Below, one piece after another: positions 3,521 to 53,000 of a DNA stretch of 64,000 nucleotides. The translations under genes were made by a program, and so were the position numbers. The stretch's first letter is position 1; each line of letters opens with the position of its first letter. The DNA comes from Actinomycetota bacterium (lineage in GTDB: Bacteria > Actinomycetota > Thermoleophilia > BMS3ABIN01), in the NCBI GenBank assembly GCA_016235065.1, contig JACRMB010000002.1:1-64000 (forward strand). Reading direction: 5' to 3'. The notes beneath the pieces were generated by a model. The model was not told the DNA's origin. It saw only the letters and a program-made list of their open reading frames with translations, and searched no databases.

Positions 3521-4984
3521 CTAGTTCCCCAGCAGCTTCTGCACAGCGTCCTGGGCGGCGTTCAGTACCGGCGAAGGCAATACTCCAAGTAGCAGCACGC
3601 CGGCTGCCGCCAGCCCGATTCCCAGGCTGAGATCCCACGACCTGCCGTCCACCTTTTCCGACGCAGCCTCTCCAGGTTCACGCATGTACATGTACACGAT
3701 CACCCGCAGGTAGAAGAAGGCCGAGACCAGGCTGAACAGCGCGCCCACTACCGCAAGCCAGGGTAAGCCAGCGTCGACCACGGCCGAGAATAGATAGAAC
3801 TTGGCCAGGAAGCCGGCGGTCGGTGGCACTCCGGTGAGCGACAGCATGAACAGGGCCATCACTCCCGCGGCCCAGGGGAAGCGCTTGCCCATCCCCGCGA
3901 TCTCATCGAGGCTGTCAGTGAAATTCTCGCTGTTGTTGGAGAGGTGCACCAGCACTGCGAAAGCGCCCATATTCATGAAGGCATAGGCCGCCAGGTAGAA
4001 AAGTATCGAAGACATGCCCAGGTTACGGCCGCTGTCTCCCGTAGCGACCACCGCCAGCAGCAGGTAGCCCACGTGGCCGATGCTGGAAAAGGCCAGCATC
4101 CGCTTGAGGTCCTTCTGGACCAGCGCCATGGTGGAACCGACGACCATGGTCGCTATGGACAGCGCCATCATCAGTGGCACCCAGATCTCGCTCTGGCTTC
4201 CCAGGATCATCGTGAAGAATTTTAGTATCGCGGCGAAGCCGGCGATCTTGGGGCCTACCGACAGGAAGGCGGCCGCCGGCGTTGGCGAACCCTGGTAGAC
4301 GTCCGGCGCCCAGTTGTGGAAGGGCGCGGCGCTGACCTTGAAGGCGAAGCCGGCCAGTATCAGCACCACGGCTATCACCAGAGGCGCCTGGGGGACCGGT
4401 CCCAGGTTGATGGCGTCGCTTATCGCCTCATAGTTTGTTGAGCCGGTGAGCCCGTAGAGGATGGCAACTCCGAACAGCAGGAAGTTTGAGGCGAAGGCTC
4501 CCGTCAGGAAATATTTCATCGCCGCCTCTATCGAGCGCTCCTCGTAGCGGAAGAAGCCTGCCAGCAGGTATGAGGACAGAGCCATCAGCTCCAGCCCGAC
4601 GAAGAAGGTGATCAGGTCGATAGCCTCGGCCATGACGATCATGCCGATGGTGGTGAATAGAATCAGCGCGTAATAATCGCCCAGCAGGCGCTGTTTTTTA
4701 TGCAGATGCTTCTCCGAGATGAGCATCGCCAGCGTCGCCACGCCGAGCAGCAGGATCTTGAAGAAGACCGAATATTTGTCGAGGGCGATGCTGTTGTTGA
4801 AAGCGGTGTACTCATCGCCGCTGGCGAGCCAGGTGGAGAGGGCCGCAGTTATGCAGGCGAATATGCCGAGCCAGCTGAGGCCGCGCCGGCCTTCTTCCGG
4901 CAGAAGGGGATCCACCAGCAGGATCACCACTGCCGTGACGATCAGCATCAGTTCAGGCATGATGGAGAGCAGGTCTTCAGTCAT
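3521..4984 (-). CDS. nuoN: NADH-quinone oxidoreductase subunit N
   Basis: The 487-residue polytopic protein matches the length of NuoN (485 in E. coli). It shows the antiporter-like core: an Asp/Glu-containing helix ITFFVGLELMALSSYLLAGF, the broken-helix region VSAAPFHNWAPDVYQGSPTP with its conserved Lys/Pro context, and ALVQKDLKRMLAFSSIGHVG. NuoN is one of three proton-pumping membrane subunits of complex I. It is the last gene of the operon and its ATG lies one base downstream of the nuoM stop codon, indicating translational coupling. Confidence 0.95.
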   Translation of the reverse strand: MTEDLLSIMPELMLIVTAVVILLVDPLLPEEGRRGLSWLGIFACITAALSTWLASGDEYTAFNNSIALDKYSVFFKILLLGVATLAMLISEKHLHKKQRLLGDYYALILFTTIGMIVMAEAIDLITFFVGLELMALSSYLLAGFFRYEERSIEAAMKYFLTGAFASNFLLFGVAILYGLTGSTNYEAISDAINLGPVPQAPLVIAVVLILAGFAFKVSAAPFHNWAPDVYQGSPTPAAAFLSVGPKIAGFAAILKFFTMILGSQSEIWVPLMMALSIATMVVGSTMALVQKDLKRMLAFSSIGHVGYLLLAVVATGDSGRNLGMSSILFYLAAYAFMNMGAFAVLVHLSNNSENFTDSLDEIAGMGKRFPWAAGVMALFMLSLTGVPPTAGFLAKFYLFSAVVDAGLPWLAVVGALFSLVSAFFYLRVIVYMYMREPGEAASEKVDGRSWDLSLGIGLAAAGVLLLGVLPSPVLNAAQDAVQKLLGN

Positions 4985-6547
4985 CTAGAACAGCCCTCCC
5001 AGGGAAGCGAAGATCCTCTCGACGGCATTGCCGCTTTCGGCCATGTAAGGGGCCATCTTCTCAGTCAGCCTCGCGGCCGGTGGCTGGATCAGCTCCAGGA
5101 AAGTGTTGGGATAGACGCCCGCCCAGATCGCCAGGAAGCCCAGCGGCAGCAGGCAGACGATCTCACGCAGGGAGTAGTCGGGCAGCTTGTACCATTTCTC
5201 GTCGCGCAGCTTTGTGAACATCACCCGCTGGAACATCCAGAGCAGGTAGGCTGCCGCCAGGATGATTCCGAGCGATGCGATCGCAGCCAGCACCTTGCTG
5301 TAGGTGAACAGGCCGACCAGGCTGAGGAACTCGCCCACGAATCCCGAGAGGCCGGGGAGTCCCAGCGAGGCCAGGGTGAAGAACAGCAGGAAGCCGGCCA
5401 TGACCGGGAATGGGCCCGCGAGCCCACCCATATCGGCGATCTCCCGTGTATGCAGGCGTTCGTAAAGGAAGCCCACCATAAGGAAGAGGGCGCCGGTGAG
5501 CAGGCCGTGGCTGAACATGACCATGATGCCGCCCTCGATACCGACGAGGTTAAGCGCAAAGATGCCGGCAGTGACGAAGCCCATATGACTGACGCTGGAA
5601 TAGGCGACCAGCTTCTTGAGGTCTTTCTGCGCCAGTGAGACCAGGGCCCCGTAGATGATGGCGATAAGCGACAGCACCAGGATCCAGGGGGCGAAGGTGA
5701 CTACAGCGTCGGGGAACAGCGGGATGCAGAGTCGCAGCATTCCATAGCCGCCCACTTTCAGCAGCACGCCGGCCAGGATGACGCTGCCCGCGGTTGGCGC
5801 TTCCACATGGGCATCCGGGAGCCAGGTATGCAGCGGCCACATGGGCACCTTGACCGCGAAGGCGATAAAGAATGCCAGGAAGGCCCAGAACTGCACCTGG
5901 TACGAGAATACGGCTTTCTCCAGCAGGCCCATGTCGAAGATCGGCGTCGCGTACTGGTTGTCCCGCGCCAGGTAGGCGATTGCGACGATGGCGATCAGCA
6001 TCAGCAGGCTGCCGGCGAAGGTGAACAGGAAGAACTTTACGGCGGCATAGATGCGGCGCGGCCCGCCCCAGACCCCGATGATGAAATACATGGGGATCAG
6101 CATGACTTCCCAGAAGACATAGAAGAGCAGCAGGTCACGGGCGCAGAAGACGCCGATCATGCCGGTCTCGAGGAAGAGGAAGGCGGCGAAGAACTGAAGC
6201 TCCCGTTCCTTGATGTAATTCCATGAGGCCGGGATGATGATCAGCGACAGCAACGTCGTCAGGATGATCATCAGCACGCTGATGCCGTCGACGCCCATCT
6301 GGTAGCTGATGCCCAGGCTGGGTATCCAGGATACCTTCTCGATGAACTGCATGTCGGCGGTATAGCGGTCCAGGTTTGCGACCAGCAGGAGGGACAGCAG
6401 GAAGTTGGCAGCGGTGACCGCGAGCGCCAGGCTCTTGTAGGCCGTGGGCTTGCCGCGCAGGAGCAGCATGACCAGTCCAGCCACAGCGGGCAGGAAGGTC
6501 AGCACCGTCAGTATGGGAAACCCTATCTGTTCCTGAAATCCGTACAT
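4985..6547 (-). CDS. nuoM: NADH-quinone oxidoreductase subunit M
   Basis: This is a 520-residue antiporter-like subunit of complex I. Diagnostic motifs are YVFWEVMLIPMYFIIGVWGG, FAVKVPMWPLHTWLPDAHVE with the pumping Lys and HTWLPDAH signature, and SLAQKDLKKLVAYSSVSHMG. It pumps protons in the membrane arm together with NuoL and NuoN. The gene sits between nuoL (49-base gap) and nuoN (adjacent). The length and motifs agree with the family and nothing is missing. Confidence 0.96.
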   Translation of the reverse strand: MYGFQEQIGFPILTVLTFLPAVAGLVMLLLRGKPTAYKSLALAVTAANFLLSLLLVANLDRYTADMQFIEKVSWIPSLGISYQMGVDGISVLMIILTTLLSLIIIPASWNYIKERELQFFAAFLFLETGMIGVFCARDLLLFYVFWEVMLIPMYFIIGVWGGPRRIYAAVKFFLFTFAGSLLMLIAIVAIAYLARDNQYATPIFDMGLLEKAVFSYQVQFWAFLAFFIAFAVKVPMWPLHTWLPDAHVEAPTAGSVILAGVLLKVGGYGMLRLCIPLFPDAVVTFAPWILVLSLIAIIYGALVSLAQKDLKKLVAYSSVSHMGFVTAGIFALNLVGIEGGIMVMFSHGLLTGALFLMVGFLYERLHTREIADMGGLAGPFPVMAGFLLFFTLASLGLPGLSGFVGEFLSLVGLFTYSKVLAAIASLGIILAAAYLLWMFQRVMFTKLRDEKWYKLPDYSLREIVCLLPLGFLAIWAGVYPNTFLELIQPPAARLTEKMAPYMAESGNAVERIFASLGGLF

Positions 6548-6596
6548 AACCTCAATCGTTTCCTGGATAAAATCTGTTCATTTCCAAAATCTGTTC

Positions 6597-8486
6597 CTAG
6601 ACCGTCAATATCAGGTAGGCGACCAGCAGCGCCAGGAATCCCATGAACATGCTGAACAGGTATGCCTGGATCTTGCCGGACTGCGCCGGTTTAAGCACCA
6701 TGCCGAAGCCGCGGAAGAACCTCGCGGCGCCGTTGACGAAACCGTCGATGACCGCCACGTCCACCCAGCGCCAGAGCCCGCGTCCCAGGGCCATGACCGG
6801 GTTGATGACCGCAGCGAAGTAAAATTCGTCGATCCAGTATTTGTTGAGCGCCGCCTTGTAGAGGAAGCCGGCGCGCGCTCCCGCTTTCGCCGGCAGGTCA
6901 TCCGGCCGCTTGATATAGAACTGCCACGCGAGCAGGATGCCGGCGATGCCGATCAGCGCCGATAGCGCCATCAGGGCGAGGTCCACAGCTCCGAAAGCGT
7001 GGGGGGCGATGCCGGCGGCCTCGAATACCGGTTCCAGGAATCTGTCTATGTGACCGTCTTCTGGCGGCAGGCCCAGAGCCAGCCCGATCAGGGCAGATGG
7101 AATCGCCAGCAGAATCAGTGGCGTGGTCATGCTCCGAGGCGACTCGTGGGCATGGGCGAACGCCTTCTCATCCCGCGGCTTGCCGTGGAAGGTCATGAAG
7201 ATCAGGCGGAACATGTAGAAAGCGGTCATGAAGGCGACGATGAGGCCTACCGCCCAGAAATACCAGTAGCCATGATTGAATGATCCGGCCAGGATACTGT
7301 CCTTGCTCCAGAAGCCGGCCAGGCCCGGGAATCCCGATATTGCCAGGGCGCCGATGACGAAGGTCCAGTAGGTGATCTTCGTCTTGTTCTTCAGGCCGCC
7401 CATCTTGCGCATGTCCTGCTCGCCGCTGAGAGCGTGGATGACCGAGCCCGAGCAGAGGAACAGCAGGCCCTTGAAGAAACCGTGGGCGACCAGATGGAAC
7501 ATGCCGGCAGCCCAGGCTCCCACGCCCAGCGCCATGAACATGTAACCGAGCTGGCTTACCGTGGAATAGGCGAGTACTTTCTTGATGTCGTTCTGCACCA
7601 GGCCGATCGATGCCGCGAAGATGGCGGTGAACGTTCCCACCAGCGCCACGACGAACATGGCAGTATGCGACTCGGCGAAGAGGGGGTTGGCGCGGGCGAC
7701 CATATAGACGCCGGCGTTGACCATGGTGGCGGCGTGGATCAGCGAGCTGACCGGGGTGGGGCCCTCCATGGCGTCCGGCAGCCAGACGTGCAGCGGGAAC
7801 TGGGCGCTCTTGCCCATGGCTCCCATGAACAGCAGCAGGCAGATGGCGGTCATGGTGCCGCTGCCGATGGCTCCAGCCGAGGCGAAGACGCCGCTGTAAC
7901 TCAGGGTGCCCACGGTCACGAAGATCAGCATGATGCCGAGCCCGAAGCCGAAGTCGCCGACCCGGTTCACGAGGAAGGCTTTGGTGCCGGCATTGGCGGC
8001 GCTCTTCTTCGTATACCAGAAGGAGATCAGCAGGTATGAGCAGAGTCCGACAGCTTCCCAGAACACGTAGAGCATCAGGAAGTTGTTGCCCAGGATCAGC
8101 ATGAACATTGAGAACATGAAAAGGTTGAGGTAAGCGAAGAAGCGGTAATAGCCGCCGTCGCCCTTCATGTAGCCGATGGAATAGACGTGCACCATGAAGC
8201 CGACCGTGGATACGACCAGCAGCATGACCGCGGTCAGCTGGTCCACGAGGAAGCCGATGTCCACCTTGAAGCTGCCGGCGGCGATCCACGAGTAGACCTG
8301 CCAGTGCAGCTCCTCACCGCGCTCCACCTGGACTATCAGGTAGACGGAAAGCAGCCAGGAGACCGCCACGGCGGCCACCGAAAGATAGTGGCTCTTCTCC
8401 TTGAAGAAGCGCTTGCCGAACAGCCCCGTGATGATAAACGAGGCCAGCGGTAACAGCGGTATGAGTAGTACTGCCGCTTTCATCAA
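6597..8486 (-). CDS. nuoL: NADH-quinone oxidoreductase subunit L
   Basis: The 629-residue product is the largest antiporter-like subunit. It has the family blocks FWEAVGLCSYLLISFWY, KSAQFPLHVWLPDAMEGPTP and LVQNDIKKVLAYSTVSQLGY. A long C-terminal extension after residue 500 includes an amphipathic region and a final helix, as expected for the lateral helix that braces the membrane arm. It follows nuoK by eight bases. The start is the ATG at 8486. Confidence 0.96.
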   Translation of the reverse strand: MMKAAVLLIPLLPLASFIITGLFGKRFFKEKSHYLSVAAVAVSWLLSVYLIVQVERGEELHWQVYSWIAAGSFKVDIGFLVDQLTAVMLLVVSTVGFMVHVYSIGYMKGDGGYYRFFAYLNLFMFSMFMLILGNNFLMLYVFWEAVGLCSYLLISFWYTKKSAANAGTKAFLVNRVGDFGFGLGIMLIFVTVGTLSYSGVFASAGAIGSGTMTAICLLLFMGAMGKSAQFPLHVWLPDAMEGPTPVSSLIHAATMVNAGVYMVARANPLFAESHTAMFVVALVGTFTAIFAASIGLVQNDIKKVLAYSTVSQLGYMFMALGVGAWAAGMFHLVAHGFFKGLLFLCSGSVIHALSGEQDMRKMGGLKNKTKITYWTFVIGALAISGFPGLAGFWSKDSILAGSFNHGYWYFWAVGLIVAFMTAFYMFRLIFMTFHGKPRDEKAFAHAHESPRSMTTPLILLAIPSALIGLALGLPPEDGHIDRFLEPVFEAAGIAPHAFGAVDLALMALSALIGIAGILLAWQFYIKRPDDLPAKAGARAGFLYKAALNKYWIDEFYFAAVINPVMALGRGLWRWVDVAVIDGFVNGAARFFRGFGMVLKPAQSGKIQAYLFSMFMGFLALLVAYLILTV

Positions 8487-8494
8487 AGCTGCAT

Positions 8495-8803
8495 CTATCC
8501 CTTCATCTCGTCCATGTCGTCAATGGACAGTTTCTCTTTCAGGCGGTACATGGCGATGGCGATAGCCAGGCCGATGGCGGCTTCCGCCGCCGCCAGGGCG
8601 AAGACGAAGAAGACGAACACTTCGCCGCGGCCGCTGCCTGTCGGTGAATAGTTGGAAAAAGCCACCAGGGCGATATTGATCGCGTTCAGCATCAGCTCCA
8701 CGCACATGACCACCATGATCAGGTTGCGCCGCGCCAGCACTCCCCAGGCACCGATGAAGAACAGCGCCATTGAGAGAGCGAGATATTGTTGCAGTGGCGT
8801 CAT
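8495..8803 (-). CDS. nuoK: NADH-quinone oxidoreductase subunit K
   Basis: The 102-residue product has three membrane helices with the buried Glu residues of NuoK ([20 protein letters not shown] and [20 protein letters not shown]). I place the start at the ATG at 8803, which overlaps the TGA of nuoJ in an ATGA junction. A longer frame continues upstream but would run through nuoJ in another frame. The length matches the family (about 100). Confidence 0.95.
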
Positions 8804-9297
8804 CACTTCTCCTTCTTGGCCAGGAGCACGGCGCCGACCATGGCGACAAGCAGCGCCAGGGAGACCAGCTCGAAGGGGAAGGCGTATTCGTTGAACAGCA
8901 ACGAGGCGATCTGTTCGTCGCCCGGGTTCTGGGCCTCGCTGGTGGAGTTGTACTCGGCGGTAGCCATCACCACGACCAGGGCCACGGCGGCGACGGCGCA
9001 GATGGGAGCCGCCACCCAGGCCTGCTTGTGAAAATAAAGTTTGATATCGCCGGTCCGGTGGCTGGTGAGCATGATGGCGAAGATGATCAGCACCGAGATG
9101 GCGCCGACGTAGATGAGCACCTGCGCGGCTGCGACCAGTTCGGCGTGGAGCATGACGAAGAGCCCGGCCACGCCGAGGAAACAGCCGACCATCGAGAGGG
9201 CGCTGTAGATAAGCTCCTTGAACAGCACTACACACATCGCCGAAGCGATGATGATGGTCCCGATGATGAGGAAGGCTATCTGGCTGAACTGTGGCAT
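8803..9297 (-). CDS. nuoJ: NADH-quinone oxidoreductase subunit J
   Basis: The 164-residue membrane protein has five predicted helices and the NuoJ signature [20 protein letters not shown], which holds the pi-bulge helix that changes conformation during turnover. The ATG at 9297 overlaps the stop of the preceding subunit (ATGA). It is slightly shorter than E. coli NuoJ (184). Confidence 0.93.
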
Positions 9298-11621
9298 CAG
9301 CTGACGCCCCCGCTTTCGGGCGCTTTGCCGCGGGCGCGTTCGAGCAGGTTGCAATGGAGGTCGGCGTGCTCGTGGGAGGCCAGCTCGAAGGCCGGCGTCG
9401 TTGCCAGCGCGTCCTGCGGGCAGACCTCGACACAATCGGCGCAGAAGATGCAGCGTGAGGTGTCGAGATGCCAGTTGTCCAGCCGCCGTTCCTTGAGGAA
9501 GAGCGCTCCGGTCGGGCAGATGCTGGCGCAGCGGCCGCAGGAGACGCAGTCGGTGTCGTTCAGCGACTGGTCGAACGCCGGGGTGGCGATGGTGCCGGCG
9601 CCCCGGTTGGCCAGCTCATACACTCCGGAGCCGGTGATATATTTGCAGACCCGCACGCAGCGGCCGCAACTGATGCAGCGGTTGGGGTCGCGCTGGACGA
9701 ACGGATGGGTCGTGTCACGCCCATACACATGCTGCTCGCCCGCGAAGCGGTTCAGCTTGTCCTTTGTGAGTCCGTGGTTGATGCTGTAGCGCCGCAGCTT
9801 GCAGGTCTCGACGCCTTCGCAGATGCACTGGAGGCAGCGGTTGCCCTCGAGGCCGGCAGCCTGCTCGGAGAATCCCTGTTCGACCTCACGGAAGTTGTCC
9901 ATGCGTTCGGCCGCGGAGATGTTGCTAGACAGCTGGCGCTCTACCTTCTCGGGGCGCCAGGCGGGGATGGCCACCATCGGCGGTTTGTCGAATTCGGGCA
10001 GGCCGGCCTCGTATTCGGCCATATCCACGCCCCGCATGTAGGCGTCCATCGCCCAGGCCGCCCGCTTGCCGGCGTTGATCGCCTGGACCACCGTGGCGGC
10101 GCCGGTCACGGCGTCGCCACCGGCGAACACCTCGGGCCGGTGGGTCTGAAAAGTCTTGGGATTGGCCTCGACGGTCTGCCAGCGGCTGCATTTGACGCCG
10201 GTGTCTTCCTCGAGGAAATTGCACTCCTCCTGGGAGGTGATGTCGTTGTAGGTAAGCTTTGGTTTCTGGCCGATGGCCGGGATGATGGTATCCAGCTCCA
10301 TCAGGTATTCCGAGCCCGGCACCGGTTCAGGGCGCCGCCGGCCGCTCTCGTCGGGTTCGCCCAGCTCCATCTTCTGCAGGACGACACCTTTGACGCGGCC
10401 GTTTTCCGCCTCGACCTTGACCGGGGCTGCCAGGAACAGGAAGTTAACGCCTTCCTCGCGGGCGTCGCGCACCTCGATCTCGTGAGCGGGCATCTCCTTC
10501 TCGGTACGGCGATAGATCACCGTCACTTCTTTGGCGCCCTCGCGCACCGATACCCTGGCGGCGTCCATGGCGGAGAAACCGCCGCCGATGACCGCTACCT
10601 TCTCGCCGATATCCGGCGGATTGCCCAGGGCCACCTCGCGCAGGAAATCGACCACGGTGATGACACCGGGCGTATCCTCGCCCTCGACCCGCATCGCCAT
10701 GCTCTCGTGAGCGCCGATGCCGAGGAAGACCGCGTCGTAGCCACTTTCGCCCAGAAGGCTCTCGATGGAACAGTCCGGGCCCAGGCATTGCTGCGTCTTC
10801 AGTTCGACTCCCATGTCCCAGAGCGGCTGCAGCTCGGCGTCCAGCACCCGCTTTGGCAGCCGGTACTCGGGGATGCCGTAGCGCAGCATCCCGCCCGGCT
10901 CGGGCAGGGCTTCGAGGATGGTGACCGCATGCCCTTTCAGGGCGAGATAGTAAGCGTTGGCCAGTCCGGCCGGCCCGGCTCCGATGACGACGACTTTCTT
11001 GCCTGTAGCGGGTTCCGGCTCTTCCGGACGAAATCCCTTCTGGATGGCAACGTCGCCGACGAATCGATGCGAGAGCCTGATGGATATCGGCTCCTCCACC
11101 TCGCGCCGGCGGCACTGGGATTCACAGGGATGCGGGCAGATGCGCCCGACCACCGCCGGGAACGGCAGGTTCTGTTTCAGCACCCGCTGGGCCTCGTCAT
11201 AGTCGCCCTCGGTGATGAGGCCGATGAACGACGGCGCGTCAACGCCCGTGGGGCAGCCGTACTTGCACGGTGGCAGGCAATAGGCGTTGTGATCTGAGAG
11301 CATCAGCTCCAGATATGTGGTGCGCAGCCGGGTAAGCTGTTCCGATTCGGTGTTGACTACCATGCCTTCCCTGACGTAGGTGGCACAGGAAGGAACCGGC
11401 CGGTCTTCTCCCTCAACCTCGACCACGCATACGCGGCAGCCGCCGTGGGGTTCCAGCTCCTTCAGGAAACAGAGGTATGGGATCTTGATCTTCACGGACT
11501 TGGCCGCGTCGAGGATGGTATCTCCCTCGCGGGCGGTCAGCTGACGCCCGTTGATGGTGAGGTTGACCAGGGCGCCCTGCGGGGCTCTGAGCGGCGGTAG
11601 AGTCTCGACGCGTTCCCTCAT
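9297..11621 (-). CDS. NuoG-like complex I subunit with inserted GltD flavoprotein and C-terminal NuoI half
   Basis: The 774-residue protein starts at an ATG overlapping the upstream stop (ATGA). The order of domains is: 2Fe-2S ferredoxin (Cys 51, 62, 65, 79, NuoG/FDH type); a cysteine region ([22 protein letters not shown]); a glutamate-synthase small-subunit (GltD/NfnB-like) FAD/NAD(P) domain with two dinucleotide folds ([18 protein letters not shown] and [16 protein letters not shown]); two 4Fe-4S motifs ([23 protein letters not shown]); and a last one ([16 protein letters not shown], then TPAFELA) that reads like the C-terminal half of NuoI. The molybdopterin-like domain of ordinary NuoG is absent. 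The position between NuoF and NuoJ shows that it replaces NuoG and part of NuoI. The assignment to complex I is firm from context; the electron path is inference. Confidence 0.85.
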
Positions 11622-13441
11622 CGGTTCTGGCACCTCCCCGCGGCGCACGACGGCTTCTCGCCGATGTGGCCGGTGAATTCCTGCTGGAAGAATTTCATGG
11701 CGGTGAGCAGTGGCCTCACTGAGCCGCGGCCGAGGCCGCAGTGTGCGCCGTCGGCGATGTCGGCTGCGAGGTCCGCCGCCAGCTGCAGGTCTTCCTCAGA
11801 GCCGCTGCCGTCGCAGAAACGGTCGACGATATCCAGCAGGCGCCAGGTCCCCAGGCGGCACGGCACACACTTGCCGCATGATTGCGAGGCGGAGAAGGCC
11901 AGGCACTCCCTCGTGACCTGGACGACACAATCCTTGCCGGTCAGCACCGCGATCACGCCGGAGCCGATGTCGCCGCCGGTCTCGGAGATCGAATCAAAAT
12001 CCAGCGGGATGTCAAAAAGTCCCGGCGAGAGGAAACCGCCGCCGGACGAACCCACGAGTGCCGCCTTCGCATCCGCCGTGAAGCCCCCGGCCGCCTCGGC
12101 CAGCTTCTTCAGGGTGATGTCGAGCGGGGCCTCGTAGAGGCCGGGACTGGCGACAGCGCCGCTCATCATGAAAAGCCTTGTGCCAGGCGCATGGGCCGCG
12201 CCGATCTGCTGGAACTCGCGGGCGCCGTTGGCGATGATCCAGGGCACGGTCGCCAGGGTCTCGACGTTCTCGACGACCGTCGGCATGCCGTGCAGGCCAT
12301 GCTCAGCCGGATACGGAGGCCGGACCTTGGGCATCGGCCGCCCGCCCTCGAGGGTAGTGATCAGGGTCGTCTCCTCGCCGCCCGCGAAAGATTCGGGCAC
12401 CGCCCTGACCTTGATCGAAAAGGAAAAATCAGTTCCGGGAAGCTCGCCTCCGAGGAATCCCTTTTCCTCGGCCTGCAGCACCGCTATCTGTATGCGTTCC
12501 AGAGCCAGGCGGTTCCTGATGCTGGCGTAGATGATGCCATTCGTAGCCCCGACCGCGTAACCGGCGATTATCATGCCCTCGATGACGGCATGGGGGTCGT
12601 TCTCAAGCAGCGAGCGGTCCTTCTCTGAACCGAGGTCGCCCTCGCCGGCGTTACAGATGATATATTTCTCCATCGCCTCGGTATCGCGGGCCAGCTGCCA
12701 CTTCCTGCCGGTGGAGAAGCCGGCACCACCCCGGCCGCGCAGGCCGCTGACGGCGATCTCGTCGAGCACCTCGGCGGGGGCCATCTCGGTCAGGGCGCTG
12801 GTCGCTGCTTTATATCCGCCCGCGTCCGCGTAGGCGTCGATGCTTTCCGGGTCGATGGTGCCGTACCTGGATAAAAGGATCGAGGGATTGCCCGGAACCA
12901 CCACCGCCGGGATCAGCGGCTGTTCCGCCTCCTCGAGGGGAGGCTCCGGCGCATCCGGCCGCAGCTGATCATAAAAAGTGGCGACGCCGAAGACCTGGGC
13001 CAGCCAGACTCCGTTGCGGCTGGCGGTCTTCGCCAGTACCATCGCCGAGAGGCCGTTGGTATCCAGCAGCGAACTGGCGATGCAGCCGTCCCGGTCGGGG
13101 GCGGGCAGCGGATCGGCTTTCTCCGGCCAGAGCTCCAGCCCCAGCGGTTTCTCGCCGCGCTGGAAGGTCGACAGCATCGGGCCGGCGCCGGCGTCCAGGC
13201 TCCAGACTTTCTCCGGCTGCTTTTCCTCGTAGATGATCCGGATGGCAACCGACGGGCAGACCTGCTCACAGAATGTGCAGGAGATACAGCGCGGGTCCAT
13301 GGTATCAGGCTTGAGCCTCAACCGGAGCAATCCGCGGCTGCGTTCGGGCAGCTGGCGGCGCTGTTCGGGATACTGGATCGTCACCTTCTTGGTGAAAAGG
13401 TGGCCGATGGTGGCGTGCATGCCTTTTAACAGACCGAGCAT
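11618..13441 (-). CDS. nuoF: NuoF fused behind N-terminal NuoI half and NuoE remnant
   Basis: This is a 607-residue fusion. Residues 1-70 resemble the start of NuoI (GHLFTKKVTIQYPEQRR), with one 4Fe-4S motif at Cys 52, 55, 58 and 62; the second NuoI motif is missing here. Around residues 120-165 a helical piece ends in QVFGVATFYDQL, the hallmark of the N-terminal half of NuoE, but the NuoE 2Fe-2S domain is gone. From about residue 215 a complete NuoF follows: the FMN loop GLRGRGGAGFSTGRKW, an SLBB region, and the N3 cluster motif SCGKCVPCRLG with the distant Cys in HCGLG. The expected CNADEGEPG or CNGDEGDPG loop reads CNAGEGDLG. It should oxidise NAD(P)H or accept electrons in the peripheral arm. 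Confidence 0.88.
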   Translation of the reverse strand: MLGLLKGMHATIGHLFTKKVTIQYPEQRRQLPERSRGLLRLRLKPDTMDPRCISCTFCEQVCPSVAIRIIYEEKQPEKVWSLDAGAGPMLSTFQRGEKPLGLELWPEKADPLPAPDRDGCIASSLLDTNGLSAMVLAKTASRNGVWLAQVFGVATFYDQLRPDAPEPPLEEAEQPLIPAVVVPGNPSILLSRYGTIDPESIDAYADAGGYKAATSALTEMAPAEVLDEIAVSGLRGRGGAGFSTGRKWQLARDTEAMEKYIICNAGEGDLGSEKDRSLLENDPHAVIEGMIIAGYAVGATNGIIYASIRNRLALERIQIAVLQAEEKGFLGGELPGTDFSFSIKVRAVPESFAGGEETTLITTLEGGRPMPKVRPPYPAEHGLHGMPTVVENVETLATVPWIIANGAREFQQIGAAHAPGTRLFMMSGAVASPGLYEAPLDITLKKLAEAAGGFTADAKAALVGSSGGGFLSPGLFDIPLDFDSISETGGDIGSGVIAVLTGKDCVVQVTRECLAFSASQSCGKCVPCRLGTWRLLDIVDRFCDGSGSEEDLQLAADLAADIADGAHCGLGRGSVRPLLTAMKFFQQEFTGHIGEKPSCAAGRCQNR

Positions 13442-13491
13442 CTAGAAGGTTTCCTTCAGGTTCGGACGTCGGGCTTTATTCGAGATCCATA

Positions 13492-14619
13492 TCATGAGCG
13501 GATACCGCCCTTGCCGGTTCCGGATATCATCGTCGTCATCTTGCGGCTGGCCAGCAGCTTGAGCCTCTTGTTCAGCAGGACTTTCCGGATATAACCCGGG
13601 AAGAAGATGATGAACAGGGCCACGCAGGACCAGCTGAGTATCGCTGTAGGCAGCAGGAAATTATCCGGCCAGATGATGATGAACATGCTGGTCGCCGCCA
13701 GATTGAGCAGGCTCAGCGGTATCAGCATCTTCCAGGCGAACGACATAAGCTGGTCGATCTGCAGCCTGGGGAAAGTCACGAAGAACCAGATGATCACCAG
13801 GGCCATGATGCCGACCTTGGCCGCCAGCCAGACGGGGCTGTTGAAGAAAGGCCCGCGCCAGCCGCCCAGAAAGAGGGTCGAGCCCGCCATCGCCCAGACC
13901 GTCACGTTGCCCCACTCGATCAGCGCCGCGAAACAGGCGAAGCGGAAGCCGCCATACTCGGTGTTGTAGCCGCTGACCAGCTCCGACTCCGCCTCGGGCA
14001 GATCGAAGGGGGTACGGTTCAGCTCGGCTACGCCGGCGATCACGTAGATGATGAAGGCCAGAGGCTGGATCGCCCCGAACCAGACGGAATCCTGGGCCTC
14101 TACTACCTTGTTGAGGCTGAGGGAATCGGCCAGCAGGCCCACCAGGATGATTGTCAGGATAAGCGGGATCTCGTAGGAGATCATCTGCGCCGCGGCCCTC
14201 AGGCCGCCGACCAGGGAATACTTGTTGTTGGAAGCCCAGCCGGCGATCAGGATGCCCAGCACACTGAAGGCGCCGACGGCCACTACATAGATGAGGCCGA
14301 TATTGAGGTCGGCGATCGTATAGTCCTCGCTGAAGGGGATGACCACCTGTGTCAGCAGTGGGGTGCCGAGCGCCACAGCCGGCGCGAACAGGAACAGCAG
14401 CTTGTGGGCCTGCGCCGGCGTGATGTCTTCCTTGATGAACAGCTTGAGGCCGTCGGCGAACGGCTGGAACAGTCCCTGGGGACCGACCCGGTTGGGGCCC
14501 AGCCGGTCACAGATGAAGCCCCAGAGGCGGCGCATCAGGAAGGGGAAGACCACGGCGCTGGCGGCGATGACCCCGATGGCGATGAGGAAGCCAGGCGTGA
14601 AATTCCTGAAAAATTCCAT
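13492..14619 (-). CDS. nuoH: NADH-quinone oxidoreductase subunit H
   Basis: The 375-residue membrane protein carries the NuoH quinone-site blocks: DRLGPNRVGPQGLFQPFADG, KEDITPAQAHKLLF, ELNRTPFDLPEAESELVSGY and NTEYGGFRFA. NuoH anchors the peripheral arm and forms the quinone chamber. I start it at the ATG at 14619 behind GGTGAG, eight bases after the nuoD stop; an open frame continues upstream only as antisense of nuoD. It is about 50 residues longer than E. coli NuoH because of a basic C-terminal tail (residues 345-375). Confidence 0.95.
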   Translation of the reverse strand: MEFFRNFTPGFLIAIGVIAASAVVFPFLMRRLWGFICDRLGPNRVGPQGLFQPFADGLKLFIKEDITPAQAHKLLFLFAPAVALGTPLLTQVVIPFSEDYTIADLNIGLIYVVAVGAFSVLGILIAGWASNNKYSLVGGLRAAAQMISYEIPLILTIILVGLLADSLSLNKVVEAQDSVWFGAIQPLAFIIYVIAGVAELNRTPFDLPEAESELVSGYNTEYGGFRFACFAALIEWGNVTVWAMAGSTLFLGGWRGPFFNSPVWLAAKVGIMALVIIWFFVTFPRLQIDQLMSFAWKMLIPLSLLNLAATSMFIIIWPDNFLLPTAILSWSCVALFIIFFPGYIRKVLLNKRLKLLASRKMTTMISGTGKGGIRS

Positions 14620-14627
14620 GAGACCAC

Positions 14628-15797
14628 TCACCGGTCGACGCCTCCCATCAGCAGGTCGAGGCTGCCGACGATCGCTACCAGGTCGGCGATCTTGTTGCCG
14701 GCGGTGAGTTTGGGGATCATCGAGATGGCCGAGAAGGTCGGGTCGCGGAGCTTCAGGCGCCACGGACGCAGACCGCCGTTCGAGACGATATAGACCCCGT
14801 ATTCGCCCCGGGGAGTCTCGACAGCGCGGTATACATCGCCTGCCGGAGGCCGGAGCATCGGCGGCAGCTTGATGTTGACCGGTCCACCGCAGATGGAATC
14901 CAGCGCCTGCTCGATGATCTTCACCGACTGGCGCATCTCCTCGATACGGCACTTGTAACGGTCGAAACAGTCGCCGTGCTGGCCCAGCGGCACGTCGAAA
15001 TCGAACTCCGGGTAGACGGAATAGCCTACTTCGCGCCTGAGGTCCCAATCGACTCCGGACGCCCGGGCGTTGGGGCCGGAGATGCCGTAGTCGAGCGCCT
15101 CATAAGGTTTGATGATGCCCATCCCCAGGGTCCTGGAGATGAAGATCTCGTTGTCGGTGATCAGCGCTTCGTACTCGTCGATCCTGGCCGGGAACTCGCT
15201 GATGAACTTACGGCAGCCGGCCTCGAATTCGTCGGGAAGGTCCCAGCGGACTCCACCGACGCGCAGGTAGTTGTACATCATCCTCTGCCCGGTGGCCATC
15301 TCCATCAGGTCCATCGCATCCTCGCGGTCGCGGAAGACCCAGAAGAAGGGGGTCACGGCTCCCAGGTTGAGCATGAAGTCGCCGATGGCTACCTGATGGC
15401 TCATGATGCGGTTCAGTTCTCCCAGGATGACGCGGATATATTCCGCCCGCTTGGGGGCCCGGATGCCCATCAGCGCTTCGACGCTACGGACGTAACCCCA
15501 TTCCATGAAGAAACCGGAAAGATAATCGAGGCGGCTGATCATCGCCATGTACTGCAGGTAGGTACGGCTCTCGGCAAGTTTCTCGAAGCCGCGGTGAAGG
15601 TAACCGAGCACCGGCTCGACGCTCACCACGAGTTCGCCATCCAGGTGCAGTACCAGCCGCAGCACCCCGTGGGTCGACGGATGCTGCGGACCCATGTTGA
15701 GGACCATCTCCTCCAGGTGGAAGCTCGGCGGAGCCTGCTGGCTGTTCTGTTCTTCAGGCGGCGATTTCGGGCCGTTCTTTTCTTCGATGACGCTCAT
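14628..15797 (-). CDS. nuoD: NADH-quinone oxidoreductase subunit D
   Basis: The 389-residue subunit is homologous to the hydrogenase large subunit and forms the quinone site with NuoB. Visible family motifs are [20 protein letters not shown] (quinone His), [25 protein letters not shown] and the C-terminus [11 protein letters not shown]. The start is the ATG at 15797, which overlaps the nuoC stop (ATGA). A 35-residue charged and Pro-rich N-terminal tail precedes the conserved core. Confidence 0.95.
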
Positions 15798-16342
15798 GAC
15801 CTGTCCCTGCGGTCGGTCTCTCCGGGAAGCCGCTTGGGCCTCTCGATCCCTTCCCAGCGCCATTCGGTGCGCCTGACGCGATGGGGCCAGGCATCCTTCT
15901 TCATGGGATGGGTGTCATAGTCTTCACGGGTGAGGATGCGCCTCAGGTCGGGATGGCCGATGAATTTTATCCCGAAGAAATCGTAGGCCTCCCGCTCGTG
16001 CCAGTTGGCGCCGCTCCAGATATAAGTCACGGAAGGAAGTTCTGGTTTCTCGCGGTCGAGCCGGATCCGCAGCCGCACAGGTATCGAATGTTCCTGTGAC
16101 CGCAGCAGATAGATCGCCTCCATCCAGTCGACGTAGTCGACGCCGATGATGCAGCTGATGTATTTGCATGAGAGCGTCTCGTCGTCGCGCAGGCGCAGGG
16201 CGGCTTCAGGCAGGTCGCCGGGCCTGACCTCGATCACCAGGTGCCAGTCCGAGACGCTTACGTCGCGGGCCAGTTTGCCCATCAGCTCCCTGGTATGGTC
16301 GAGGGCATCCGGCGCCCTGTATTTCTGATGCTCCCGGCTCAA
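15794..16342 (-). CDS. nuoC: NADH-quinone oxidoreductase subunit C
   Basis: The 182-residue protein contains the 30-kDa-subunit signature [19 protein letters not shown] followed by [21 protein letters not shown]. It joins NuoD to form the connecting module. The start is a TTG overlapping the nuoB stop (TTGA), with a GGCGAGAG stretch upstream. No ATG is available before the conserved part, so the TTG is the only sensible start. Confidence 0.93.
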
Positions 16343-16887
16343 CTCTCGCCGCCTTCGGGTTTCATCTTGACGTGGTCGCTCATGGGGCCGCCGGTAAGCC
16401 GCTTGGCCGCGCCTACCTGGGTGTCCTGCTTCACTTTCAGCTGCAGCTGCTGCATCCCGTAGATAAGGGCTTCGGGCCGCGGCGGGCAGCCTGGTATATA
16501 TACATCAACCGGGATCAGCAGGTCGATGCCCTGCACTACATTGTAGGAATCCCAGAACATGCCGCCGCTGCAGGCGCAGGCACCCATGGCGATCACCCAG
16601 CGCGGCTCGGACATCTGATGGTGGAGGTGGCGGATGATCGGCGCCATCTTGTCGGTGATGGTGCCGGAAACGATCATGACGTCAGCCTGGCGCGGTGAGG
16701 CGCGGAAGACTTCCATGCCGAAACGCGCCATATCGTGGCGGGGCATGGTCGAAGCCATCATCTCGATGGCGCAGCAGGCGAGACCGTAGGTGAAAGGCCA
16801 GAGCGAGTTGGCCCGCGCCCAGTTGAACAGCCTGTCAGTGGTCGTCGTGAGGATGTTCGGATGTTCGAATTTTTCCAGCAGCGACAT
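16339..16887 (-). CDS. nuoB: NADH-quinone oxidoreductase subunit B
   Basis: The 182-residue subunit carries cluster N2, the last Fe-S centre before quinone. The ligand motifs are present: [10 protein letters not shown] (Cys 38 and 39), [11 protein letters not shown] and [11 protein letters not shown]. The start is the ATG at 16887, one base after the nuoA stop codon. Its length matches the family. Confidence 0.96.
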
Positions 16888-16888
16888 G

Positions 16889-17257
16889 TCAGACCCACTC
16901 CAGGGCGCCCTTGCCCCAGGCATAGATGAGGCCGAACAGGAGCACGGCGAAGAAGATCATCATCTCCACAAAACCGGTCATACCCAGGGTCCTGAAGACC
17001 ATGGCCCATGGGAACAGGAACACTGCTTCCACATCGAAGATTACGAACAGCAGGGCGAAGATGTAATACCTGACGGCGAAGGGGGTGCGGCTGTCGCCGA
17101 CGGGAGGGATGCCGCATTCGTAAGGCGTGAGTTTTTCGGGATAGGTGTGGCGCCTCTGGATGAGTCGGGAGATGCCGAGAAGTCCCAGGACAAACACGAC
17201 ATCCAGCAGGCCCATGACGGCCACGGTGAGGTAACTATAAGTATAATCAGGAGTCAA
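16889..17257 (-). CDS. nuoA: NADH-quinone oxidoreductase subunit A
   Basis: The 122-residue, three-helix subunit shows the NuoA signature [20 protein letters not shown] followed by [20 protein letters not shown]. It is the first gene of the operon. The start is a TTG at 17257 with GGAG about six bases upstream. The 180-base leader in front of it contains a promoter and a terminator-like hairpin. Confidence 0.94.
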
Positions 17258-50084: not shown

Positions 50085-53000
50085 ATGGCCGATCTACCAC
50101 ATCACGAGATAATCTCCGAAGGCGGCCCGCTTGTCAGGTTCTTTATCGATGGCCGCTATCTGCAGGTAAATCCCCGGATGACTATTCTCGAGGCCGCGCA
50201 GGCTAACGGCATCGAGATCCCTACCCTCTGCAGCGATCCAAGGCTGGCGCCTTCTGGCCGCTGTGGCCTCTGTCTTGTGGAAGTGGTAGGCGATGGCATC
50301 GTCAATTCCTGCCAGACTCCTGTGGCCGACGGCATGGAGGTCGTCAGCGAGAGCCCGGAGATCGCCGAAGCCCGGCGCAAGAAGCTCAACGAGTACCTGA
50401 CCAGGCATAACGCCTATTGCGAACCACCCTGCCACAACGCCTGCCCGGCGCGGATCGACATCCCTGCTTACCTGGCGGCGATAGCCCGTGGCGATGATGC
50501 CGAGGCTATCAGGATCGTCAAGAAGAGGCTCCCTCTGCCACGGATAATCGGCCGGGTCTGCCCCCGCCCCTGCGAGAGCGCCTGCCGCCGCACCCAGGTC
50601 GACGAGGAACCGGTGGCTATTTGCCAGCTCAAGCGTTTCGCCGGCGACAAGTCGCTGGCAGACGGCACCCGCATCCCGGAAGAGACCGCGCCGGCTACCG
50701 GCAGGAAGGTCGCCGTAATCGGCGCCGGGCCCTCGGGTCTATCCGCCGCTTATTTTATGGCCCTCGACGGGCACCAGGTGACTATTTTCGAAGCAAACTC
50801 CCAGGCCGGAGGCATGACCCTTACCGGCATTCCGCCTTTCCGGCTTCCCCGCAAGGTGATCCAGGAAGAGGTGGATGACATCCTGGCGCTCGGTGTCGAG
50901 CTGAGACTCAACCAGCGCCTGGGCAGGGATCTCACTCTGGAGAGCCTGAAGTCAGATGGTTACGACGCCGTCTACCTGGCTATCGGAGCCCAGCACGGTT
51001 CAACCGGCAGGATTGAGAACGCCGAAGTCCCGGGAGTCATCTCGGCTGTCGATTTTCTGGAGAGCAGCAACAGGGGCGGCTGGGAGACGGCTCTTGGCAG
51101 GACCCTGATCATCGGCGGCGGCTTCACCGCCATGGATGCCGCCCGGTCCGCGCTACGACTCGGCGCTGATGAGGTCACCGTTGTCTACCGCCGCTCTCGC
51201 GAGGAGATGCCGGCGACGAAGGAAGAGGTCAACGAGACCGAAGCTGAAGGCGCCAGTCTTTCACTGCTGACGGCGCCGCTTTCGGTAGTCAGTGACAGCG
51301 GCCGCGTCTCCGGCGTCCTCTGCCAGAAGATGGAGCTGGGCGAGCCCGATGAGAGCGGCAGGCGCAGTCCCGAACCGGTCGCCGGCTCCGATTTCACCAT
51401 CGATGCGGATACGATAATCCTCGCCATCGGCCAGAAGGTCGATCCTGAAGGCCTGGAACCTGCCCTGACGCTGACCCGATGGGGCACGGTCGAAGCCGAT
51501 CAGCGCACTCTTGGGACCAGTATGGAAGGAATCTTCGCCGGAGGCGACTGCGAGACCGGTCCCGCCACGGTAGTCGAGGGCATCGCCGCCGGCCGCAGGG
51601 CCGCGGTGGCTATAGGCGCCTACCTGGCTGGCGAGGACCCGGATGAAGTCTGCGCGTCACCTGCGGCCGGCCTCAAGCGCCGCAAGCCCAAGACTTTCGA
51701 CATCGGCGCCAAGCCGCTGTCCGACGAAAAACGCCACCACATGCCTGAGCTGGCTGTGGAAGAACGAAAGAATTTTAAGGAAATCGAACTGGGCTATGAA
51801 GAAGCTTCCGCCAGGGCCGAGGCGGCCCGCTGCATGCAGTGCAGCTGCCACGCGGTCTCTGACTGTGAGCTCAGGCGTCTTTCCATCAGATATGGCGCCG
51901 GCACGACCGAGTTCAGGGGAGAAGGACAGTTCCCGCTCTTCGACGGTTCGCCCATCCTGCAGCTCGACCGCAAGCGCTGCATCAAGTGCCACAGCTGCGT
52001 CCAGATCTGCCGCGAGCTCGAGCAATATGGTGTATACGAGGTGGATGATGACGAGTATCCGGCACTCAAGGGTGAGACCTACCGGGATTCCGGTTGCGTC
52101 TCCTGCGGCCAGTGTATCGATGTCTGTCCGACCGGCGCCCTGGTCAACGTCCAGCTGAAGGACCACCGCGAGTGGGAGATCAAGCGGGTACGCACCACAT
52201 GTCCTCTATGTGGTACTGGTTGCAACTTCGACCTCAACGTCAAGGACGGCAGGGTCGTCGGTGTCACCTCAAATGCCGATTCGCCGGTGAACAACCGCGC
52301 GCTCTGCGTCAAGGGAAGGTTCCATTCAGACATGATCCACAGCCCGGAGCGGCTGACTGCGCCACTGATCAAAAAAGATGGCGCCTTCGAAGAGGCGACC
52401 TGGGATGAGGCTCTCGACCTGGTGGCCGCCAGCCTCACGAAGATAAAGGAGCGGGATGGCTCCGACGCACTGGCGGCCCTCAGCTCGGCGCGGTGCACCA
52501 ACGAGGAAAACTGGCTGATGCAGAAGTTCATGAGGGTGGTGATGGGCACCAATAACGTTGATCATTGTGCCCGCACTTGACACGCTCCCACTGTGGCCGG
52601 TCTGGCCATATCGTTTGGAAGCGGCGCCATGACGAACTCCATCAACGAGGTGGGTTTCTACGACGCGATGTTCATCATCGGGTCCAATGCCACCGAGGCA
52701 CACCCCATAATCGGCAACAAGATGAAACGCGCCGCTCGCCGTGGCGCCAGGCTGATAGTGGCCGATCCACGCCATATCGAGCTGGTTGATTTCGCCGAAC
52801 TCTGGCTGCAGATCAGGCCCGGCACCGACGCCGCGCTGGTCAATGGCATGATCAACATCATCATCAGCGAAGGCTGGTCCGACCAGGCTTTCATCGAAGA
52901 GCGCTGCGAGAATTACGACGAGTTGTGGCGCGTCGTCCAGAAATATACTCCGGAGATGGTAAGCGGGATCACCGGCGTCCCGGAGGAGAAGCTCTTCCAG

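Follow-up and report, generated by a model that had tools for sequence, protein, structure and literature searches.

A complex I operon of uncultured Thermoleophilia in which two NuoI-like halves are fused to different electron-input proteins

The operon and its two fusion proteins

The window, which is the whole stretch of 64,000 nucleotides that was analysed, contains a complete 12-gene complex I operon on the minus strand (3521-17257) with the order nuoABCDH-P1-P2-JKLMN. All of the membrane arm is encoded in this single operon, namely nuoA (16889..17257), nuoH (13492..14619), nuoJ (8803..9297), nuoK (8495..8803), nuoL (6597..8486), nuoM (4985..6547) and nuoN (3521..4984). The Q-module is represented by nuoB, which encodes the N2 cluster subunit (16339..16923), nuoC (15794..16342) and nuoD (14628..15797), and NuoI is present solely as two halves, each fused to another protein. 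Few core subunits of complex I are as conserved as NuoI, whose two clusters are the fixed wire that leads from the flavin module to quinone. The NADH module differs from the canonical one in that only the core of NuoF is found, NuoG is replaced by a GltD-type protein and the 2Fe-2S domain of NuoE is absent genome-wide. These changes are concentrated in two adjacent genes, P1 (11618..13441, 607 aa) and P2 (9297..11621, 774 aa), which overlap by ATGA. The best start of P2 is the ATG at 11621, which overlaps the P1 stop, with an alternative GTG at 11648 that would give 783 aa, and the ATG of nuoJ in turn overlaps the P2 stop (TGATG).

P1 begins with the N-terminal half of NuoI (residues 1-80, 13202..13441), which includes a NuoI-type N-terminal helix, the motif VTIQYPE...RSRG and the first 4Fe-4S motif, CISCTFCEQVCP (CxxCxxCxxxCP, Cys 52/55/58/62, 13253..13288), with all four cysteines invariant in 22 of 22 aligned homologues. 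This is followed by a NuoE-like helical piece, QVFGVATFYDQL (12947..13090), that aligns with the full NuoE of a second, sister family (f3, below). The thioredoxin/2Fe-2S domain of NuoE is absent from P1, and PF01257 has no match in the entire genome. The remainder of P1 is a NuoF/BfuB core with FMN domain, SLBB and N3 4Fe-4S site (11654..12859); the thioredoxin region at the N-terminus and the 2x4Fe-4S region at the C-terminus of bifurcating homologues are both missing. The first-pass annotation, made from the sequence alone, had described P1 in these terms, as a NuoI-like start with one 4Fe-4S motif, a NuoE-like piece lacking its 2Fe-2S domain and then NuoF, and this description was confirmed.

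P2 opens with a NuoG/HydA-type [2Fe-2S] domain (11343..11570; Fer2_4, E 7.6e-21), of which the cysteines (60/71/74/88 in 783-aa numbering) are invariant. A complete GltD/NfnB-like domain follows (residues 124-540, 10029..11279), comprising Fer4_20 and the FAD and NAD(P)H Rossmann folds; it was missed in the first reading, and its fold was confirmed by AlphaFold2 structure prediction. Next come an N5-like CxxCxC...C site and a pair of 4Fe-4S motifs, M1/M2 (9513..9836), arranged as in StnC/NfnA by alignment to 9bov_A and 8oh5_C. This 2x[4Fe-4S] pair, also overlooked at first, is self-contained and separate from the NuoI C-terminal half, which lies at the end of the protein (residues 721-770 in 783-aa numbering, 9339..9488) and carries the TPAFELA sequence from which its likeness to the second half of NuoI had been proposed; Cys 733/736/739/743 are invariant in 20 of 20 aligned homologues, and the conservation of the two motifs exceeds what chance would give. 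P2 had been called NuoG-like, which holds for its NuoG-type 4Fe-4S sites, but it is an StnC/NfnA-type protein (2Fe-2S, GltD and 4Fe-4S) without the molybdopterin-like domain of NuoG.

Two complementary halves of NuoI

The NuoI profile TIGR01971, with its curated cut-off of 113.05 bits, was used to examine both ends. P1 residues 7-75 match profile positions 1-67 (63.7 bits, E 1.1e-17) and the P2 tail matches positions 70-116 (48.3 bits), so that the halves cover complementary stretches of the profile. Neither passes alone, and the best single protein in the genome reaches 61.6 bits, whereas the joined halves score 114.4 bits, a narrow margin above the cut-off. A control join of the N-terminal half to a different Cys motif of P2 scores 88.8 bits and the internal M1/M2 pair 29.2 bits. 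As M1/M2 is explained by homology to StnC/NfnA, the last motif of P2 is left without a partner within P2. Canonical NuoI has its two Cys motifs on one chain; here both motifs, and the matching profile positions, are divided between two chains, the first half ahead of NuoE/NuoF and the second behind the GltD protein. The earlier proposal that NuoI is divided between two electron-input proteins is supported. A family-by-family search of the genome (98.9% complete) found neither a NuoE nor a second NuoF, and no protein that passes the NuoI cut-off, in agreement with the absence of canonical nuoE, nuoG and nuoI genes outside the operon, and a canonical NuoI elsewhere in the genome was rejected as an explanation. 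A PorD-type ferredoxin was likewise rejected for the halves, the joined construct from f3 scoring 33.7 bits against TIGR02179 and 95.0 bits against the NuoI profile, the latter itself under the cut-off. No split NuoI was found in a literature search of open-licence papers.

Part of the profile score of a short, Cys-rich piece is generic, and the two motifs could be independent single ferredoxin motifs that resemble NuoI by convergence, each with its own cluster or none, and form no reassembled NuoI. Short Cys motifs resemble many ferredoxins and many families match them weakly; P2 residues 698-766 align unaided to NuoI positions 41-116 with 63.5 bits. Structure prediction did not place the halves, with AlphaFold2 models of P1 and P2 run separately giving pLDDT below 50 over both of them and over the C-terminal Fe-S region. 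However, the well-known M1/M2 domain is modelled equally poorly, so the low values are uninformative rather than contrary. Independent motifs are considered improbable, given that the N-terminal half has NuoI-specific sequence beyond the motif, matching the profile from position 1, that only the true pair and not the control join exceeds the cut-off, that both motifs are invariant over two families, and that the operon would otherwise lack NuoI, leaving N2 hardly reachable.

In 2[4Fe-4S] ferredoxins, each cluster takes one ligand from the other motif, namely its fourth cysteine. By this rule, N6a and N6b are each predicted to be ligated by both polypeptides. The suggestion that the two clusters sit on separate polypeptides is therefore too simple.

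Distribution and relation to bifurcating modules

The window belongs to a family of uncultured Thermoleophilia (f1, 18 genomes), and the P1/P2 architecture was observed in 17 of the 18 at 53-86% identity. The genome is a draft of 10 contigs, in which an assembly or frameshift artefact might be suspected; with the architecture conserved across 17 genomes and a related form in a second family, this is next to impossible and was rejected. Among approximately 350 Thermoleophilia and 396 Actinomycetota genomes, the composite was matched over its full length only in f1 and f3. A contig scan with two motif patterns returned 28 loci, all with Thermoleophilia or Actinomycetota-type titles or without a taxon.

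In f3, the order is nuoH-[I1-NuoE]-[BfuB-like NuoF]-[P2]-nuoJ, with the NuoI N-terminal half fused to an intact NuoE, a separate bifurcation-type NuoF and P2 as in f1. The f3 proteins keep the NuoE [2Fe-2S] motif, the NuoF N-terminal thioredoxin region and the C-terminal 2x4Fe-4S region. Judged by its sequences, this arrangement is an intermediate state between a bifurcating module and the f1 fusion, and the f1 operon shares a common origin with this bifurcating-type relative. The Q/membrane-arm tree unites f1 with f3 (support 100/99), and in the class sample the nearest neighbour by these subunits is an 11-subunit complex I (nuoABCDHIJKLMN without NuoEFG), which differs in that its NuoI is whole and its operon includes no dedicated flavin module. 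In the NuoF tree, f1 forms a long branch that falls outside both Stn and f3, and the P2 tree gives no firm order among f1, f3 and Stn. The case for a single origin therefore comes from the Q/membrane-arm tree together with the shared composite.

Among the closest known systems are the bifurcating Stn/NfnABC enzymes (8oh5, 9bov, 9n5u; PMC10482914). In a fold search, P2 resembles StnC/NfnA over the 2Fe-2S, GltD, N5-like and M1/M2 regions at approximately 41% identity, and the P1 core resembles StnB/NfnB; the GltD-type NAD(P)H-FAD domain that marks BfuA/StnC is found in P2. In contrast to these enzymes, P2 ends in the NuoI half and has no FdhF-like C-terminal domain, the accessory domains of bifurcation are missing from P1, and the module sits in a membrane complex I operon. 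The idea that domain shuffling gave rise to the present NADH module is supported, with an Nfn/Stn-type electron-bifurcating module, intact in f3, as the route. A second comparison is Nuo-Bfu, described from Geobacter, Deferribacteres, Nitrospirae and Planctomycetes, in which a BfuABC module takes the place of NuoEFG (PMC9304861). Both have genes for a hydrogenase/Nfn-type input module set amid those of a nuo operon and are predicted quinone-linked proton pumps. Nuo-Bfu is published with 14 subunits, A-N, so that an undivided NuoI is implied, whereas in the window NuoI is split and f1 lacks the bifurcation clusters.

An active bifurcating or confurcating complex I of this kind, using NADH, ferredoxin and quinone at once, is quite improbable for the window. 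Its nearest structured NuoF and P2 homologues are the bifurcating NfnABC/StnABC, and the domains corresponding to the BfuB B2-B5 clusters and the BfuC 2Fe-2S are present in f3 sequences, where a bifurcating reading is likely. In the window protein, however, the BfuB thioredoxin region, the C-terminal 2x4Fe-4S and the NuoE [2Fe-2S] are all missing, each of them belonging to the Bfu core (PMC9304861), and in Stn deletion of the StnA [2Fe-2S] abolished bifurcation (PMC10482914).

Electron entry and the proposed route

The reading that is preferred, at a probability of roughly two in three, is a proton-pumping complex I in which the NuoEFGI part has been replaced by an Stn/Nfn-type module that docks through the split NuoI. 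The N-terminal half, with the membrane-side helix and first Cys motif, would be borne by the NuoE/NuoF protein and the C-terminal half, with the second Cys motif, by the GltD-type protein. The halves would reassemble as a single NuoI-like 2[4Fe-4S] domain, both chains ligating each cluster, from which electrons would pass to N2 in NuoB and on to quinone.

From comparison of its residues, the FMN site of NuoF is eroding in f1: an Asp found in each of the 13 sequences used for comparison has disappeared from all 17 members, every one of the 17 has Glu or Asp in place of the first Asn of NNVET, and 3 of them lack one N3 Cys. The motifs of the GltD site, in contrast, are all conserved and its residues invariant. 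An alternative is that NADH still enters normally at NuoF and that the GltD domain provides an additional port for NADP(H), combining complex I and transhydrogenase in one enzyme. In its favour, AlphaFold2 predicts the NuoF fold of P1 with high confidence, the glycine-rich loop and most loop acids are retained, 14 of the 17 members, including the window, have all four N3 Cys, and the GltD site is conserved. Because most of the FMN-loop acids corresponding to E95/E97 are still present, NuoF may continue to oxidise NADH. Set against the substitutions in NuoF, this arrangement is rather unlikely. Under the preferred module-replacement reading, the loss of the bifurcating clusters and the NuoE [2Fe-2S] from f1, and the erosion of its FMN site, make entry of NAD(P)H at the GltD-type FAD likely; by homology the donor would be NADPH, and NADPH entry at this flavin is plausible. 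NuoF would perhaps remain as a residual or mainly structural subunit. P2 His194 stands where StnC/NfnB has a Lys170/Glu ligand.

A NuoI shared between two chains would indicate that the flavin-to-quinone wire can be cut and then rebuilt across subunits, and that a respiratory proton pump has taken over a bifurcating transhydrogenase module, with a living intermediate extant. It also suggests that NADPH may come to replace NADH as the electron donor of a complex I.

A fuller version is somewhat less likely than not. In it, N6a and N6b are each ligated by cysteines of two polypeptides and fed mainly by NADPH at the GltD-type FAD, NuoF is losing its NADH site, the split has a single origin in a bifurcating Nuo/Nfn hybrid ancestral to these Thermoleophilia, and the split ferredoxin was later reused as a pyruvate:ferredoxin oxidoreductase connector. 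Por-Bfu, a predicted bifurcating pyruvate:ferredoxin oxidoreductase mainly of Chloroflexi and Proteobacteria, is comparable, although the passages that describe it mention no split ferredoxin (PMC9304861). The likeness is to a soluble Por-linked paralogue with both split halves, which was found in f3 and in a further family, f5. Its N-terminal half lacks the NuoI N-terminal helix, no membrane arm accompanies it, and its C-terminal half is followed by a PorB-like (TPP-type) domain. The NuoF of this paralogue is nested inside the f3 Nuo sequences (99/99).

A divided NuoI in the complex I operon

Complex I is encoded on the minus strand by an operon that begins with nuoA (17257) and ends with nuoN (3521), in the order nuoA, B, C, D, H, P1, P2, J, K, L, M, N, where P1 (607 aa, 11618-13441) and P2 (9297-11621, numbered on a 783-aa version) are fusion proteins. 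An ATGA overlap joins P1 to P2 and a TGATG overlap joins P2 to nuoJ, as would be expected with translational coupling. In P1, residues 1-80 match positions 1-67 of the NuoI model TIGR01971 (63.7 bits as a fragment), followed by the helical part of NuoE (about 118-165) and by NuoF (195-605). P2 starts with a [2Fe-2S] domain. Next comes a GltD/NfnB-like domain for FAD and NAD(P)H that includes a Fer4_20 region, and then follow a CxxCxC...C site, M1 and M2 (a 2x[4Fe-4S] pair) and a last Cys motif flanked by NuoI-type sequence. AlphaFold-type single-chain predictions of each protein alone confirmed the NuoF and GltD folds; the NuoI halves came out without a resolved fold.

The first-pass annotation had placed the halves of NuoI on two proteins, and this was borne out. 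The halves match complementary positions of TIGR01971, and P1 1-82 joined to P2 720-783 as a bookkeeping test scored 114.4 bits, narrowly above the curated cut-off of 113.05 bits. The P2 half alone scored 48.3 bits, M1-M2 alone 29.2 bits and a control join of the P1 half to the M2 motif 88.8 bits; for comparison, a canonical NuoI of the same family scored 165.8 bits, and joined halves from a second family, f3, scored 95.0 bits, under the cut-off. M1 and M2 are accounted for by homology to StnC/NfnA, and the last motif of P2 is therefore partnerless inside P2; the first Cys motif of P1 has no partner inside P1. A genome-wide profile search of the window's genome (G000, 98.9% complete) found no NuoI above the cut-off and no NuoE thioredoxin domain, and NuoF is single-copy. 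The NuoI split is well supported. Some relatives (G013, G002 and G008; loci L067, L068 and L069) have, besides, a second and canonical complex I in which nuoC and nuoD are fused and NuoI is whole (171 aa); G000 has none.

Conservation and the f3 form

Of 18 other genomes in the window's family (f1), 17 have P1, at 53-86% identity across its first 220 residues, and operon order is the same in those relatives whose loci were fetched. All 22 composites share Cys 52/55/58/62 of P1, and all 20 aligned P2 sequences keep Cys 733/736/739/743. This recurrence, kept order and invariance rule out an assembly or frameshift artefact; the variant is real, conserved and unusual. The composite profile, run against some 350 genomes of Thermoleophilia and 396 of Actinomycetota, matched over its full length only in f1 and f3; the remaining matches were NuoI alone or NuoE-type proteins.

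The f3 form (INTERMEDIATE) reads nuoABCDH - [NuoI N-half + complete NuoE] - [NuoF] - [P2] - nuoJKLMN. Its N-half/NuoE protein is about 253 aa, and its NuoF (about 634 aa) has N-terminal thioredoxin-like and C-terminal 2x4Fe-4S regions, as in HydB/StnB. By its domain make-up, f3 has a complex I that contains a bifurcating module of the Nfn/Stn type, and one NuoI half sits on the NuoE-type protein, the other on the StnC-type protein. In f1 the N-half/NuoE protein was then fused to NuoF, and the NuoE [2Fe-2S] and the extra BfuB clusters were lost. In a NuoB+D+H+L tree f1 groups with f3 (100/99), apart from other sampled complex I operons, and 11-subunit complex I is the next branch. The nearest Q/membrane-arm neighbour, L074 from family f5, is an 11-subunit complex I with intact NuoI and NuoEFG absent from the operon. 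Nuo-Bfu, Stn/NfnABC and Por-Bfu are already published (PMC9304861, PMC10482914); searches of the open-licence literature turned up neither a split NuoI nor such a hybrid in Actinomycetota.

Predicted electron path

The fourth Cys of each motif in 2[4Fe-4S] ferredoxins, NuoI included, is a ligand of the other cluster, so that if the halves of P1 and P2 reassemble into a joint domain, as predicted, the NuoI clusters N6a and N6b would each need both chains. Electrons may pass from the P2 clusters through this domain to N2 of NuoB and on to quinone. All 17 f1 NuoF sequences have lost the Asp of NADEG and carry Glu or Asp for the first Asn of NNVET, and 3 of 17 lack a Cys of cluster N3, changes that point away from NADH entry at FMN; the FMN-loop acids are mostly kept. 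The GltD motifs of P2 are invariant. Because StnC uses NADPH at its corresponding FAD (PMC10482914), NADPH entry at the GltD-type FAD of f1 P2 is, by homology, the leading but unproven reading, and a donor switch from NADH to NADPH is predicted. His194 of P2 (about 11067-11069), invariant in f1 and f3, aligns with StnC Lys170 and an NfnB Glu, the ligand position of the cluster next to FAD. Electron bifurcation seems unlikely in f1, since the bifurcation clusters are lost, and plausible in f3 (PMC9304861, PMC10482914).

A Por-linked paralogue and variant loci

A second locus with split NuoI-like halves, a soluble paralogue with PorG-like and PorA-like neighbours, was found in f3 and f5 genomes (L107-L110, L115-L123). 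It encodes a short N-half with NuoE, BfuB, and a 2Fe-2S-GltD-like-M1-M2-C-half-PorB-like protein. The N-half, shorter in the Por-linked NuoE-type proteins fetched, still matches NuoI models best (TIGR01971 positions 19-63), yet the helix at positions 1-18 is missing; together with the C-half it scored 72.7 bits. Nesting of the Por-linked group among f3 Nuo sequences in the NuoF tree (99/99) favours its derivation from the complex I form, and the P2 tree gives no clear branching order. The PorB-like domain carries CxGCGxP, and the GltD-like domain shows GDG/ARH-type changes at its NAD(P) motifs.

Among relatives, NuoF and P2 form one 1750-codon frame at L095 9928-15180 (same locus as L058), by further fusion or sequencing error, and P2 and NuoJ share a single frame (1093 aa) at L094 6834-10115 (same locus as L071). 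At L079 6702-9377 (L113) P2 stops early with the NuoI C-half in another frame, probably through an indel in that MAG. Elsewhere in the window, a large plus-strand ORF (50085-52580, 831 aa) has a 2Fe-2S-like start and looks formate-dehydrogenase-like by eye; its end is overlapped by a 1040-codon antisense frame.
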